Shown here piece after piece: positions 13,454 to 20,787 of a stretch of 43,094 nt of DNA (position 1 is the first letter of the stretch; the number at the start of each line of letters is the position of its first letter). The notes below the pieces were generated by a model. That model was not told the origin of the DNA. It did no database searches and was given only the letters and a program-made list of their open reading frames with translations. Made by a program: the position numbers and the translations under genes. Source of the DNA: Candidatus Eiseniibacteriota bacterium (GTDB lineage: Bacteria > Joyebacterota > Joyebacteria > Joyebacterales > Joyebacteraceae); contig JAUVLG010000015.1 in the NCBI GenBank assembly GCA_030595835.1, positions 1 to 43,094 of the forward strand. The letters run 5' to 3'.

Positions 13454-13650
13454 TAAGGTGAGTTGCAGGAATACGCCGTTTTAGCTCCTTACTCACCACT
13501 GCACCGGGAGTCTGCCTTTCAGGAACTGCTAACGCTCTCAAGCCTTGGACAGCATAGTAGCGTCGACATAGTCAGGGTGTAGCAGAGAGATTAGTGACTG
13601 CCTGGAAGTGAAGAGACTCCTGTTTTTGTGTGGTCCGGGAAGAGGCTAGG

Positions 13651-16600
13651 ATGAGAAAAAGGGTGCTTGCTTCGGCGTTGGTCTGCTGCGTTCTGGGCAA
13701 CGCGGTCTACTCCAGCGCGGCTCTGACAACAGCCACTGCCAGCTTCGAGCGGAGCGACATCTCGTTCGAGGCCAATCGCTCCTTCCACAATGTTCTCATC
13801 GACGACTGCGTGACGCTGTCCAACGTGGGTGAACCTGACCTTCCGGTCAGGATTCTCCGTTTCGTGATCCCGGCCGAGATGCGTGTTGAGGACATCATCT
13901 TCTCGTCCGGCGACGTCATTGAACTGCCGGGAACACACAGGGTTGCGCCAGCGCAGCCGGGAACTCCCACCGGTGTAGAACCCCAGTGGGCCGACGCGAA
14001 CCCGGATGTCTACTCCATCGATGAGCTGTTCCCCGCTGAGCGAGTCGAGTACCTGGGCGACGGCTATCTCGGCGGACACCGGATCGCGAGCGTCGCGGTC
14101 CATCCGCTGCAGTACGCGCCCTTGAGCGGGCGGCTCTTCCTGGCGACGGATGTGTCGGTCGAGCTTTTGCTCGCGCCGGGGGCGGACAGATCCCAACCGC
14201 GCGGGCGGCTCTCGGCTCGTTCGGACGAGACGTACCGCAGGATGGTGCGGAGCATCGTCGTGAACCCGGAGGACATGTCTGACGGGCGCGCGTCACACGC
14301 GGCGACGGACTCCGATGCCAAGGGCTTCCTGCCCCGTTACACTCCTTCTCTCGAAGGCAGCGGCGTGGAGTACGTCATTATTACCAGCGAGGAGTTCGAG
14401 CCGCAGTTCCAGGACTTCGCCGACTGGAAGACGAGACTCGGTGCTCCGGCGGTGGTGCGCACGCTGTCCTGGATCGATCAGAACTACACCGGCGGTGTGG
14501 ATCTTCCTGAGCGCATGCGGCTGTTCATCAAGGACGCCTACTCGTCCTGGGGGACCACCCACGTGCTGCTCGGCGGCGACACGGGCGTCGTTCCCAAGAG
14601 GCTCATCAAGTCCCTCTATCAGGGTGGGGAGATGATCCCGGCCGACATCTACTTCTCGTCGCTCGAGGGCGACTGGAACGACGACGGTGACGAACTGTTC
14701 GGTGAGGGCTGGGGCGGCGTGACGGTGCCGGGAGACAGCATAGACCTCTATCCCGATGTGTTCGTCGGCCGCGCTCCCGTCAGCGATCTCGTAGAGCTTG
14801 AGACCTTCATCTCCAAGTGCCGGGCCTACGTCGAGGAGCCCCAGGTTCATTTCACGGACAGGAATCTCTTCCTGGCCGAAGTGCTTTTTCCCTACGACTG
14901 GGAGAGCGGTGGCTTCAGCCTGGACGGTGCCACGCACATCATGGAGCCCGTCCTGGACGTGTTTCCGGAGGATCTGCATCTCACGAAGCTCTACGCCAAC
15001 TACCTGGATTTTCCCGAGTCATCCGCTCTGAACTCCTCCGTGTCCATCGATTCCCTGGAGGCCGGCTACAACATCACGATTCACGCCGGCCACGGGAGCA
15101 AGGACATCCTACGTGTTAGCACGAACAACTACATCACGATGAGCGATGTGTCATCGCTGGCCAACAGCCTGACGAAGTCGTCATTCCTGTGGTTGCTGAA
15201 CTGCTCGACGGTCGCGATCGACTTCGATTGCATTGCGGAGAGGGCTCTCAACAACCCTAACGGCGGGGCGGTTGGAGCGTTCGGCGGGACACGGCTCCAG
15301 TTTCCGGGTACTTCGAAGGATTACCTCTGGCAGTGGCTCGACCTCCTGTATGCGTACGACATCTGCGACGTTGGAGAGACCTGCGCGCTTGCCAAGGCCG
15401 CGTTCGCCGCTCCCGAGATCTCCGGGACCGAGAACACCCACAGGTGGACGCAGCTCACTCTGCTTCTTCTCGGTGATCCGGGGCTCCCGCTATGGACATC
15501 CCGAGCCAGCGGCCTGAGCGTGTCGCACGCCTCGTCGGTCACCATTGGCCAGACCGCGTTGTCGGTCACGGTCACGGATGGAACCCCCGTCGAGGGCGCG
15601 CTCGTCTGCGTCATGAAGGACGACGAGGTCTACGAGCGGGCGCTCACGGGCGCGGACGGCGTGGCCGACTTGAGCATCACACCCGACACAGAGGGGACGC
15701 TCACCATCTCCGTGACGGCTCAGAACCACGTTCCGAGCGAGTCGAGCGTGAGCGTCACGGTGGCTCCAGGCGCCCATCTCTACGTGGCTGCGTTCGGCGT
15801 GGACGACGACGGGTTCGGCGAGAGCTGCGGCAACAACAATGGCAAGGTCGAGGTGGGCGAGTCAGTGGAATTCGGAGTGGAGATACAGAACAGTGGGGCG
15901 GTGGAGGCGACCTCAGTGACGGCGTTCCTGACCACCTCTGACGTCAACGTTACGATCAGCGACAGCACGGAGGTCATCGGCTCTCTCATGCCGGGGGAAA
16001 GCGCGGTCATCGGCGCGGCGTTCAGTTTCACCGCGTCTGACGTGTGTCCGCCCGAGCACGACGCTGTATTCTCGGTGGAGTTGGTCGATGGCGCCAGTGG
16101 GATGTGGACCGAGGAGATCACCGTCCGCATCCACCGACCCGATCTCGGCGGGCTCTTCCTCGAGATCGACGATTCGGCCGGGGACGGTGACGGCACGCCG
16201 GAGGCAGGGGAGACGGTAGTCCTGACGCTCGAGATCATCAATGACGGGACCGGCGACGCGGACGCGGTCTCCGGAATGCTGTCCGCGCCCTCGGGTGGCA
16301 TGACGGTAGTGGATGGGATCGACGTGTGGGGAGACGTGCCCGGAGGAGCGACGCGAACTGGTTCCACGGGCTTCCAACTCGTTGTCGGCGCTGACCCGGA
16401 CGAGCTCCTTCTTCTGGAGCTTACTGACGGCTACGGGAAGGTCTGGTCGTCCCCTCTGGATCTCGTTGCTCCCGCGGCCCCGGACAGTGTCTGGGCTCGG
16501 GTGCAGGGGACGACGATCGAGCTCTACTGGACGTCCGTCGCCGACCCTGATCTTCGCGGCTACACGGTCCAGCGATCCGAGAACCTCGCCGGTTCCTACG

Positions 16601-18384
16601 AGCGCGTGACCGACGGTGTGCTCGGCAGCGCCGCTCTCTGCGCTGATAGCGGACTGTCCGAGAATACCCTGTATTATTACTACATCACCGCCGTCGATTC
16701 GTCCGGCAACCAGAGTGATGCGACGGAGGTCATTTCCATCAGTACCAATCCGCCCAGCTTGAGCGGATGGCCGCTCTCGACAGGAGGCGGCATGTACGCA
16801 AGTCCCGCGATAGCGGATCTGGACGGCGACGGCACACCTGAGGTCATCGTCGCGTCCGAGCATCTCTACGCCTGGCACGCGGACGGTGTTGAGTTGATCG
16901 ACGGTGACGGAGACGCGCGGACCTGCGGCATCTTCGAGACGGACGGTATCGGCGGCTATCGCGGCTCACCGGCCGTGGGCGAGATCGACGGCGATCCGGG
17001 AGTGGAGATCGTCGCCGCGGCGTGGGCCGACGTCGGCTTGACGGATGCCGGTGTGTACCACATCTATGCTTGGAACGCCGAGGATGGCTCGGTGGTTCCG
17101 GGCTGGCCTGCAACGACGAGGAAAGTATGCTGGGGGAGCCCGTCACTCGCAGACCTGGATGGCGACGGGTGCTCCGAGGTCGTCATCGCCTCCGCCGACG
17201 GCTTCCTCTACTGCTGGAACGGCGACGGTTCGGAGTTCATCGACGGCGACGAGAACCCCGCGACCGACGGTGTGTTCGCGAACCTGCACAGTTCATGGGT
17301 CTTCGCTTCCACGGCGGTCGCCGACCTGGATGGCGACAACGTTCTCGATCTGATCCAGCCCTCGACGAACGACAGCGTCTACGCGTTCCGCGCCGATGGC
17401 TCAAGGGTCGAGGGGTGGCCCGTGTACGTGGAGGCGCGTTCGATGTGCTCGCCGGCCGTCGGTGACGTCGACGGCGATGGTGATCTGGAGGTTCTGGTCG
17501 GCTCCAACTCCTCGGATTTCTGGCTTCTCGAGGCCGACGGCACGGTGATGGATGGGTGGCCGAGGAGCACGACCAACGTGGGTGATTTCTCGCCATCGCC
17601 GGTTCTGGCCGACATCGTTGGTGACGACTGCCTCGAGATCATTCTTGTCGGGTCGACCGGGCGGGTACTCGCCATCGACTACCTGGGCAACACGCTGCCC
17701 GGATGGCCGCAGGATCTCGGTGCCGACACGTACGCGAGCCCCGCGGTGGCCGACGTCGATGACGATCCGGAGATGGAGATAGTCGTCGGCTGTGAGAGCG
17801 GGGAGATCTACGCGTTTGACGTCGACGGCAAGATCCTCGATGGCTGGCCCATCCGGACGGACGGTCCTGTCCGCGCGTCCGCTTCCGTGTGTGACATGGA
17901 CGGCGACGGGGACAACGAAGTGATCGTTGGAGGAATGGACGGGGATGTGTACGTGTGGGATTGTGCCGGTCTCTACGAGGACGGCGCCGGTGTGGAGTGG
18001 GGCGCGTTCCTGCACGATTCCTGGAGAACGCAGCTGTACGATTTCACGGTCCCGACGGGGGTCGACGACGGAGACGATGCATCGCATGGTCTGCCGCTGA
18101 CGGTGTTGGAGCAGAATTTCCCGAACCCCTTCAATCCGGTGACAACGATCGGCTTCACGGTTCCGGGGGGAGAGGGTGCTGACGCGCATGTATCTCTCGC
18201 AATCTACGCGGTCGATGGATCACTCGTGAGAACACTGGTGAGTGAACGAAAGACACGCGGACATCATAGCGTGGTGTGGAATGGATGCGACGCTCTCGGC
18301 AACCGGGTTGCATCGGGCATCTACTTCTACCGCCTGGCTCACGAGGAGGGAGTTGAGTCGCGCAGCATGGTGCTCATGAAGTAA
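13651..18384 (+). CDS. Secreted multidomain gingipain-like cysteine peptidase (family C25) with FG-GAP-type beta-propeller repeats and FlgD-like C-terminal sorting domain
   Basis: Signal peptide; C25 core ~14362-15497 with HAGHG and LLNCST (candidate catalytic His/Cys) and GDPGLPLW; repeats 'SPAVADVDDDPEMEIVVG' type 16765-17980; C-term QNFPNPFNPVTTIGFTVP...GIYFYRL...SRSMVLMK. Confidence 0.88.
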   Translation: MRKRVLASALVCCVLGNAVYSSAALTTATASFERSDISFEANRSFHNVLIDDCVTLSNVGEPDLPVRILRFVIPAEMRVEDIIFSSGDVIELPGTHRVAPAQPGTPTGVEPQWADANPDVYSIDELFPAERVEYLGDGYLGGHRIASVAVHPLQYAPLSGRLFLATDVSVELLLAPGADRSQPRGRLSARSDETYRRMVRSIVVNPEDMSDGRASHAATDSDAKGFLPRYTPSLEGSGVEYVIITSEEFEPQFQDFADWKTRLGAPAVVRTLSWIDQNYTGGVDLPERMRLFIKDAYSSWGTTHVLLGGDTGVVPKRLIKSLYQGGEMIPADIYFSSLEGDWNDDGDELFGEGWGGVTVPGDSIDLYPDVFVGRAPVSDLVELETFISKCRAYVEEPQVHFTDRNLFLAEVLFPYDWESGGFSLDGATHIMEPVLDVFPEDLHLTKLYANYLDFPESSALNSSVSIDSLEAGYNITIHAGHGSKDILRVSTNNYITMSDVSSLANSLTKSSFLWLLNCSTVAIDFDCIAERALNNPNGGAVGAFGGTRLQFPGTSKDYLWQWLDLLYAYDICDVGETCALAKAAFAAPEISGTENTHRWTQLTLLLLGDPGLPLWTSRASGLSVSHASSVTIGQTALSVTVTDGTPVEGALVCVMKDDEVYERALTGADGVADLSITPDTEGTLTISVTAQNHVPSESSVSVTVAPGAHLYVAAFGVDDDGFGESCGNNNGKVEVGESVEFGVEIQNSGAVEATSVTAFLTTSDVNVTISDSTEVIGSLMPGESAVIGAAFSFTASDVCPPEHDAVFSVELVDGASGMWTEEITVRIHRPDLGGLFLEIDDSAGDGDGTPEAGETVVLTLEIINDGTGDADAVSGMLSAPSGGMTVVDGIDVWGDVPGGATRTGSTGFQLVVGADPDELLLLELTDGYGKVWSSPLDLVAPAAPDSVWARVQGTTIELYWTSVADPDLRGYTVQRSENLAGSYERVTDGVLGSAALCADSGLSENTLYYYYITAVDSSGNQSDATEVISISTNPPSLSGWPLSTGGGMYASPAIADLDGDGTPEVIVASEHLYAWHADGVELIDGDGDARTCGIFETDGIGGYRGSPAVGEIDGDPGVEIVAAAWADVGLTDAGVYHIYAWNAEDGSVVPGWPATTRKVCWGSPSLADLDGDGCSEVVIASADGFLYCWNGDGSEFIDGDENPATDGVFANLHSSWVFASTAVADLDGDNVLDLIQPSTNDSVYAFRADGSRVEGWPVYVEARSMCSPAVGDVDGDGDLEVLVGSNSSDFWLLEADGTVMDGWPRSTTNVGDFSPSPVLADIVGDDCLEIILVGSTGRVLAIDYLGNTLPGWPQDLGADTYASPAVADVDDDPEMEIVVGCESGEIYAFDVDGKILDGWPIRTDGPVRASASVCDMDGDGDNEVIVGGMDGDVYVWDCAGLYEDGAGVEWGAFLHDSWRTQLYDFTVPTGVDDGDDASHGLPLTVLEQNFPNPFNPVTTIGFTVPGGEGADAHVSLAIYAVDGSLVRTLVSERKTRGHHSVVWNGCDALGNRVASGIYFYRLAHEEGVESRSMVLMK
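16765..17980 (+). repeat. Eight intragenic FG-GAP/VCBS-like beta-propeller repeats
   Basis: GWPxxxxxxxxxSPAVADLDGDGxxEVVVGSxDGxVYAW...DG repeated about eight times in the translation. Confidence 0.8.
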
Positions 18385-18508
18385 ATGACGCGGCGCCGCC
18401 GGCACGCAGCAGCGGCGGGCACGCGGCTGCTGCCGGGGCGCGGCAGCGGCGGGCAGATGGCCACAGAGGACGGCGAGAGAAGATCGGCATCGGATAGTGG
18501 CGATGCGG

Positions 18509-18621: not shown

Positions 18622-18697
18622 CCCCCACACGGCCTGACGGCCCCCACATGGCCTGACAGCCCACACATGGCCCGATAGCTCCCACATCCCCTGGCAG
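18622..18697. repeat. Four imperfect 19-bp tandem direct repeats upstream of the dcw promoter
   Basis: CCCCCACACGGCCTGACGG / CCCCCACATGGCCTGACAG / CCCACACATGGCCCGATAG / CTCCCACATCCCCTGGCAG. Confidence 0.75.
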
Positions 18698-18798
18698 CTC
18701 CCGTCACCCTCGGTAAAGCTCTGCTTGCCGGGTAAAGGTACGTTCGTGCGGTCGCCGCTTGCAACCCACGAAATCGGCCTTTCTCCGCGCATTTCTGC

Positions 18799-18827
18799 TT
18801 GACAGGACCGAGCCTTGCACATACTCT
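18799..18827 (+). promoter_or_regulatory. sigma70-type promoter of the dcw cluster (PmraZ)
   Basis: TTGACA-N17-TACTCT, expected TSS ~18834. Confidence 0.72.
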
Positions 18828-18830
18828 CTG

Positions 18831-18860
18831 CCGAAGTGGGCCGAAGTGGGATGAAGTGGG
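18831..18860 (+). promoter_or_regulatory. MraZ-box-like operator: three 10-bp direct repeats (CCGAAGTGGG x2, ATGAAGTGGG)
   Basis: GAAGTGGG at 18833, 18843, 18853; lies at the predicted TSS just upstream of mraZ. Confidence 0.75.
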
Positions 18861-18896
18861 TTGACTCGGCCAGCTCGCGGATGGGGAGGGGCACTC

Positions 18897-19358
18897 TTGG
18901 CTTCGTACTACGGTTCGTATCTTCACACGGTCGACACGAAGGGGCGCGTCTCGATTCCTTCCGAAATGCGGAAGGCGAGTGGCGATGTCTTCGTGCTGAC
19001 GCGTGGCTTCGAAGAGTGCCTCAACCTCTACCCTGCCGACGAGTGGGAGCTTGTGGAGCGTGAGCTCAAGTCCCTCCGCACGACGTCGAGGGAAGCGCGC
19101 TACTACGTGAGACAGATGATGTCGACTGTCAGGAGAGTCGTTGTCGACGGACACGGGCGCATCACGATCCCACAATGGCACCGCGAGTTCGCGGGCCTCG
19201 GTGGGGAGGCGCTCGTCAACGGAGTGCTCGAGCACATCGAGATCTGGAATGCCGAGAGATACGAGAACTACTCGGAAGGCTACGACGAATCCTACGAGGA
19301 CGTGGCCGAGACCGTCTGGAAGCACGCTAAGGGCAAGGCCGACGCGGCCGGGGAGTAG
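18897..19358 (+). CDS. mraZ: Division/cell wall cluster transcriptional regulator MraZ
   Basis: (TTG start) ASYYGSYLHTVDTKGRVSIPSEMRKASGDVFVLTRGFEECLNLYPADEWE...VVVDGHGRITIPQWHREFAGLGGEALVNGVLEHIEIWNAERYE; two SpoVT/AbrB-like repeats; GGGGAGGGG SD. Confidence 0.95.
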   Translation: MASYYGSYLHTVDTKGRVSIPSEMRKASGDVFVLTRGFEECLNLYPADEWELVERELKSLRTTSREARYYVRQMMSTVRRVVVDGHGRITIPQWHREFAGLGGEALVNGVLEHIEIWNAERYENYSEGYDESYEDVAETVWKHAKGKADAAGE

Positions 19359-19435: not shown

Positions 19436-19786
19436 GTGACGATACGATCGACACTGACAGAGCATGTCGCGGTGGTCGAGATGGCAGGTAACATGGCCGC
19501 CATCGACCTTTCCAGGCTCCACAGTCACCTCATCGATCTGCTGAGTGCCCGGCGGAAGCGAATCGTCCTGGACTTCCAGGACGTCGAGCACGTCAGCTAT
19601 CAGGACGCGTCACACCTTGCGGGGGAGTTTGAGCTCGTCCGCTCTCACAACGGAAACATGAAGGTCGCCGGCTTGAGTCCGTACGTCAGGAACATCCTGG
19701 TGTTCGCGGGTCTCTCCGACTTCCTTGATGCGAATACATACGGATTCGGAACGCTGGGACCCGCCCGCACGCCGCAGGCGAGCTGA
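19436..19786 (+). CDS. STAS-domain protein (anti-sigma factor antagonist-like)
   Basis: MTIRSTLTEHVAVVEMAGNMAAIDLSRLHSHLIDLLSARRKRIVLDFQDVEHVSYQDASHLAGEFELVRSHNGNMKVAGLSPYVRNILVFAGLSDFLDAN; STAS pattern with DASHL aligned to the DSSGL phosphoacceptor motif. Confidence 0.75.
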   Translation: MTIRSTLTEHVAVVEMAGNMAAIDLSRLHSHLIDLLSARRKRIVLDFQDVEHVSYQDASHLAGEFELVRSHNGNMKVAGLSPYVRNILVFAGLSDFLDANTYGFGTLGPARTPQAS

Positions 19787-19857: not shown

Positions 19858-20787
19858 ATGAGTGAGCACCTGCCGGTCATGGCCGCCGAGGTGGTCGAGT
19901 TCTTGGTAACTCGGACCAACGGGGGCTACATCGATTGCACCGTCGGCGCGGGCGGGCATGCGCGTTTCATTCTGAGCAGCGCGACGGAGGGCAGGCTCCT
20001 TGGACTCGACCTCGACAGTGAAGCCTTAGCTTCGGCCGGTGCCGGGCTCGCGGCCTTCGGCGGAAGGGCGGAGCTGGTGAGAGGCAATTTCTCAGACCTG
20101 GCCGCCATCGCTGACGAGTACGATTTCCGTGACGTCGACGGCGTTCTCTTCGACCTCGGGTTCTCGTCGATGCAGCTCGACGACCCCACGCGGGGCTTCA
20201 GCTACCTGAACGATGGGCCCATCGACATGAGACTGGACACCGAGGGTGCGACGACCGCCGGTGCGCTGCTCGCGAAAGTGAACGAACGGGATCTTGCGCA
20301 GATCTTCTTCGACTTCGGAGAGGAGAGACGTGCCCGCCCGATCGCTCGCTCGATCGTCAGGGCCAGAGAGAAAGGGAAGCTGACGACCACGTTCCACCTC
20401 GCGGCCGCGGTGATGGCTACGAAGCCGAAGAACAAGAACAAGACCCTGTCGCGGGTATTCCAGGCGCTTCGGATAGCCGTGAACGGAGAGCTCGACAATC
20501 TCAAGTCGGGCCTCGCGGCTGCCGTGGACATCCTCAGGCCTGGAGGGAGAGTCGTCGTCATTTCGTATCACTCGCTCGAGGACAGGATCGTCAAGCGGCA
20601 TTTCGTCGGCTGCGAGAACCCCTGCACGTGTCCGAGGGACATCCCGGAATGTGTGTGCGGGAAGAAGCCGACGCTCAAAATAGTCACGCGGAAGATCATC
20701 CGGCCGCGCTACGCGGAGATCGTATCGAACCCCAGGGCGCGCTCGGGCAAGATGCGTGTCGCCGAGAAGCTGGAGACGGAGAACTGA
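19858..20787 (+). CDS. rsmH: 16S rRNA (cytosine1402-N4)-methyltransferase RsmH
   Basis: MSEHLPVMAAEVVEFL...YIDCTVGAGGHARFIL...DLGFSSMQLDDPTRGFSYLNDGPIDMRLD...SYHSLEDRIVKRHF. Confidence 0.97.
   Translation: MSEHLPVMAAEVVEFLVTRTNGGYIDCTVGAGGHARFILSSATEGRLLGLDLDSEALASAGAGLAAFGGRAELVRGNFSDLAAIADEYDFRDVDGVLFDLGFSSMQLDDPTRGFSYLNDGPIDMRLDTEGATTAGALLAKVNERDLAQIFFDFGEERRARPIARSIVRAREKGKLTTTFHLAAAVMATKPKNKNKTLSRVFQALRIAVNGELDNLKSGLAAAVDILRPGGRVVVISYHSLEDRIVKRHFVGCENPCTCPRDIPECVCGKKPTLKIVTRKIIRPRYAEIVSNPRARSGKMRVAEKLETEN

Follow-up and report, generated by a model that had tools for sequence, protein, structure and literature searches.

A predicted MraZ-box operator over the expected transcription start of the dcw cluster in Candidatus Eiseniibacteriota

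Introduction

The intergenic region before mraZ in the 43,094-nt stretch of DNA analysed here (the window) holds a promoter followed closely by three short direct repeats, and raises the question of whether these repeats form the operator through which MraZ would control the dcw cluster, and with which regulatory sign. The MraZ proteins of Escherichia coli and Mycoplasma genitalium act as repressors of their own operon (PMC8475190), and the single MraZ site of the M. genitalium genome is located at dcw (PMC8475190). A mycoplasma MraZ is described as an activator in one study, as cited in PMC7761207. MraZ boxes at the E. coli promoter Pmra (mraZ1p) were reported by Eraso et al. (2014, J Bacteriol), as cited in PMC8475190 and PMC7761207. 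The Burkholderia cenocepacia protein shifts a fragment containing four 7-nt repeats with 3-nt spacers in electrophoretic mobility shift assays (EMSA), and its site is downstream of the -10 and overlaps the dcw transcription start that was mapped by 5′ RACE (PMC7761207).

The promoter and the box array

The sequence-only reading had described a TTGACA-N17-TACTCT promoter followed by three boxes beginning at 18833, 18843 and 18853, just before mraZ. Direct reading reproduces this arrangement to the base (Table 1), and the gene downstream is mraZ by its match to Pfam PF02381 (E=6e-27). The array consists of three direct repeats of GAAGTGGG with a 10-bp period and a GTGGG / AAGTGG core, and is also called by TRF as a short tandem repeat. 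Box 1 begins 6 nt past the -10 hexamer and its GTGG core 8 nt past, while 36 bp separate box 3 from the TTG start codon of mraZ. Transcription is expected to start at approximately 18833-18835, a position placed from the -10 hexamer alone. A simple promoter scan made no call for this promoter because TACTCT matches TATAAT at only three of six positions; despite this, both hexamers are invariant across the genus.

Table 1. Features of the mraZ promoter region and candidate inverted boxes in related genomes
Feature	Coordinates	Strand	Basis and remarks
-35 hexamer TTGACA	18799..18804	+	direct reading; invariant in six genus members
-10 hexamer TACTCT	18822..18827	+	direct reading; invariant in the genus; 17-nt spacer 18805-18821
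MraZ box 1, GAAGTGGG	18833..18840	+	direct reading; overlaps expected transcription start; invariant in the genus
MraZ box 2, GAAGTGGG	18843..18850	+	direct reading; invariant in the genus
MraZ box 3, GAAGTGGG	18853..18860	+	direct reading; invariant in the genus
Ribosome-binding site, GGGGAGGGG-type (GGGGAGG-type, purine-rich)	18882..18890	+	sequence
mraZ, TTG start, 153 aa, presumed box-binding regulator	18897..19358	+	Pfam MraZ, 6e-27
STAS-domain gene, second in cluster	19436..19786	+	Pfam STAS (PF01740), 3.4e-10
rsmH (mraW), third in cluster	19858..20787	+	Pfam Methyltransf_5, 1.7e-101
Candidate inverted pair GTGGGATG-N9/10-CATCCCAC	L008 G009:C18:20622-20647; L011 G018:C198:536-560; L012 G019:C348:11500-11524		

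The window has a single mismatch-free occurrence of three TGGG cores in 10-bp steps, and when one mismatch was allowed the mean for shuffled sequence was 0.23. The longer pattern GTGGN6GTGGN6GTGG has a single occurrence in the 2.85-Mb genome, which is the array at 18833-18860. A two-box search of the same genome (G000) with up to two mismatches found only two places beyond the array, each with two mismatches, versus four matches for a reversed control pattern. The less demanding GTGGGN5GTGGG has 16 matches, two of them within the mraZ array, and almost none of the others, as judged by eye, has AA before the second core. At the stringency of the two-box search the operator seems to be confined to the dcw promoter, in line with what is reported for M. 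genitalium.

The mraZ gene and its product

Translation of mraZ is assigned to TTG 18897 because the proteins of relatives begin at the same residue; a longer frame from TTG 18861 was considered and is unlikely for the same reason. The match to PF02381 scores 93.9 bits against a cut-off of 23 and falls in two stretches, corresponding to the presence of two MraZ (AbrB-like) domains with D-x-x-GR motifs. Both DxKGR and DGHGR are kept, and residues D13, K15, G16 and R17, together with D84, G87 and R88, are identical throughout an alignment that includes E. coli and relatives. The closest solved chains in a PDB search are MraZ proteins (1n0e and others, best 1.4e-16); a literature search for the recent MraZ structures 9qlg, 9qlr and 9sx6 yielded no publication. 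As judged from its sequence the protein is an intact, normal MraZ, and by homology to the solved structures and from the literature (PMC7761207) it would assemble as an octameric ring.

Conservation and geometry of the array

The phylum was sampled with 20 genomes, all of one family and all draft metagenome-type assemblies, 18 of which, from seven genera, hold the locus; outside the phylum, 30 mraZ loci were compared, from 29 genomes of other families and from E. coli. Among the six genomes of the window's genus the array is identical letter for letter (28 of 28 positions invariant), and elsewhere in the alignment 61 of 99 positions of the upstream flank and 2 of the 5 positions between the -10 and box 1 are invariant. 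This conservation, as read from the aligned sequences, is a stronger argument for the array being real than are the counts in the window and the genome.

Conservation of the repeats upstream of mraZ in relatives had been set beforehand as a test of the sequence-only reading, and it was found. Each of the 18 phylum genomes with the locus has at least two [AG]TGG boxes with a period of 10 ahead of mraZ, and 17 have at least three, against 0.3 and 0.0, respectively, in shuffles; other periods (6-9 and 11-14) occur in 0-2. Outside the phylum, 26 of the 30 loci have at least two boxes with this period (shuffles, 0.5) and 17 have at least three. The letters between the boxes vary among the other genera of the phylum, whereas the cores and the 10-bp period are kept.

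In the promoter, TTGACA stands at the corresponding place in 18 of 18 phylum genomes, with a TAnnnT hexamer 17-18 nt from it in the other genera. The locus L008 fits the common geometry if its -10 is taken, by eye, to be TATTCT at a spacing of 18 nt. The first GTGG core stands 7-8 nt after the -10 in nearly all phylum genomes, with the next cores at 17/18 and 27/28 nt. The phylum has no fixed number of boxes, since the locus L007 has no recognisable first box. The gap between the array and the start codon is variable, at 20-48 nt in the phylum, 19 nt in E. coli and 36 nt in the window's genus (the script's value of 11 for this genus counts an ATGGGG beside the ribosome-binding site as a box). 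Because the distance to the -10 is fixed and that to the start codon is variable, the array is set relative to the polymerase and not to the ribosome.

Comparison with known MraZ systems

The closest likeness is to E. coli Pmra, where a TTGACA promoter is likewise followed by three GTGGG boxes in 10-bp steps and then immediately by mraZ, the first gene of dcw. The phasing expected from E. coli is borne out, in that the boxes of strain K-12 stand 7, 17 and 27 nt after the -10. The two loci differ in details: the first GTGG core is 7 nt from the -10 in E. coli versus 8 nt here, the promoter spacer is 18 versus 17 nt, the E. coli boxes read CAGTGGG, TTGTGGG and AAGTGGG in place of GAAGTGGG three times over, and mraZ is followed here, unlike in E. 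coli, by a STAS gene. The B. cenocepacia site shares the direct 7-nt repeats, the 3-nt spacers and the location downstream of the -10 and over the transcription start (predicted here), but has four repeats versus three and was characterised by EMSA and 5′ RACE, whereas the present site is read from sequence alone. In Mollicutes, AAAGTG[T/G] direct repeats before mraZ (Fisunov et al. 2016, as described in PMC8475190) have nearly the same core, and the regulatory sign differs by report, with MraZ an activator in the one mycoplasma study cited and a repressor in M. genitalium.

Operator function and rival explanations

Since the promoter hexamers, the boxes, their conservation, the lock to the -10 and the single genomic occurrence are all observed and MraZ is intact, the element is very probably the usual MraZ operator found at dcw clusters. 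Both the conserved period-10 arrays before mraZ and the E. coli geometry support the earlier assignment to a MraZ-box-like operator. That assignment had also noted that the boxes here overlap +1; their position at the expected start stands, but the arrangement is no speciality, as E. coli and B. cenocepacia are alike in this respect, and by this comparison overlap with +1 is the normal arrangement and not one peculiar to the lineage. In the proposed mechanism the MraZ ring would contact successive boxes, one helical turn apart, and MraZ bound over +1 would sterically block RNA polymerase, resulting in autorepression of mraZ and dcw. Position and family both make this kind of autorepression, by steric interference at +1, the likeliest mode of action.

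The regulatory sign is uncertain from the family alone, because a mycoplasma MraZ was described as an activator in one study (as cited in PMC7761207), and MraZ might bind the same boxes here and activate transcription of the cluster. This is very unlikely: a ring bound to boxes that cover +1 and extend downstream of it would be expected to obstruct the polymerase, and MraZ is reported as a repressor both at the E. coli promoter, which has the same geometry, and in M. genitalium. The position over +1 argues for repression.

Another reading is that the repeats, which fall inside the predicted 5′ untranslated leader, work in the RNA or in translation and not as a DNA operator. The array is however locked to the -10 while its distance to the start codon differs between genera, as expected of an operator in the DNA over +1 and not of an element in the leader RNA; a strict 10-bp period near one turn of the DNA helix, and the use of the same core letters beside mraZ in distant phyla, make a leader element extremely improbable. 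An origin by chance or slippage, with no function, might be suggested by the TRF call and by the presence of other repeats in the same intergenic region (19 bp x 4.3, 18622-18702), but it is refuted by conservation and has next to no probability, as the array is kept in every phylum genome with the locus and, at the same place, in most of the other phyla sampled, with shuffles near zero, and the intervening letters change from genus to genus while the cores do not.

The MraZ operator is a known, well-described element, and what is new is its instance in this phylum. The finding leaves the understanding of the MraZ switch itself unchanged; it adds a phylum, sampled here through draft metagenome-type assemblies only, to those with the MraZ-box architecture and its fixed spacing from the -10, and supports the view of an ancient, nearly unchanged autoregulatory switch heading the division gene cluster. 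The constant 7-8 nt from the -10, set against the variable distance to the start codon, provides a comparative argument for direct interference with RNA polymerase.

Candidate inverted boxes upstream of the promoter

A CCCACC motif (mostly TCCCACC), in the opposite orientation to the array, is found approximately 46-63 bp upstream of the -35 in five of the seven genera with the locus. In two of these (g3 and g5) it is paired with a forward GTGGGATG at -83/-84, and in three further genera it stands alone at a similar place. Three of the 20 genomes carry the exact inverted pair (Table 1), in each case a short way upstream of mraZ, and none of the 20 has a copy at any other place. As the pattern was derived from these very places, it is the lack of further copies alone that carries information. 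Within the 110 bp upstream of the -35, CCCACC occurs in five of seven genera versus at most one of seven in 2000 random window sets drawn from DNA further upstream, a comparison in which the motif was chosen after being seen and in which most random sets have some hexamer common to at least five genera. No excess of CCCACC was found in other phyla (3 observed versus 8.4 expected), and in the window's own genus the element is not kept at that position. A bipartite operator, in which a MraZ ring would bridge boxes about 45-85 bp upstream of the -35 and the array to form a promoter loop, is accordingly a doubtful proposition, and the motifs hint only weakly at DNA looping between upstream boxes and the array at +1.

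Neighbouring genes and other features of the window

The array heads a dcw cluster that, by frame content, also includes ftsI and murE downstream. Every one of the 18 phylum genomes with the locus has a STAS homologue adjoining mraZ; outside the phylum, three of the genomes sampled (L019, L024 and L028) have a STAS gene between mraZ and rsmH, and no paper discussing a STAS gene within dcw turned up in a literature search. Genus g8, from which mraZ, the STAS gene and rsmH are seemingly missing, was considered as a natural mraZ knock-out and rejected as uninformative because the contig concerned (G012:C183, L127) ends 285 bp beyond murE; the seeming loss of mraZ and rsmH probably reflects a gap in the assembly.

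The 19-bp tandem repeat in the intergenic region before the promoter has 4.3 copies of CCCCCACATGGCCTGACAG, and was absent by eye from the genus-mates that were read. A GC-rich tandem repeat with a period of 17/34 (18388-18455) lies directly past the stop codon of the upstream gene, which occupies 13630-18384 and encodes a C25 (gingipain-type) peptidase of 1584 aa that also contains FG-GAP repeats and, at its C-terminus, a FlgD-like Ig domain.
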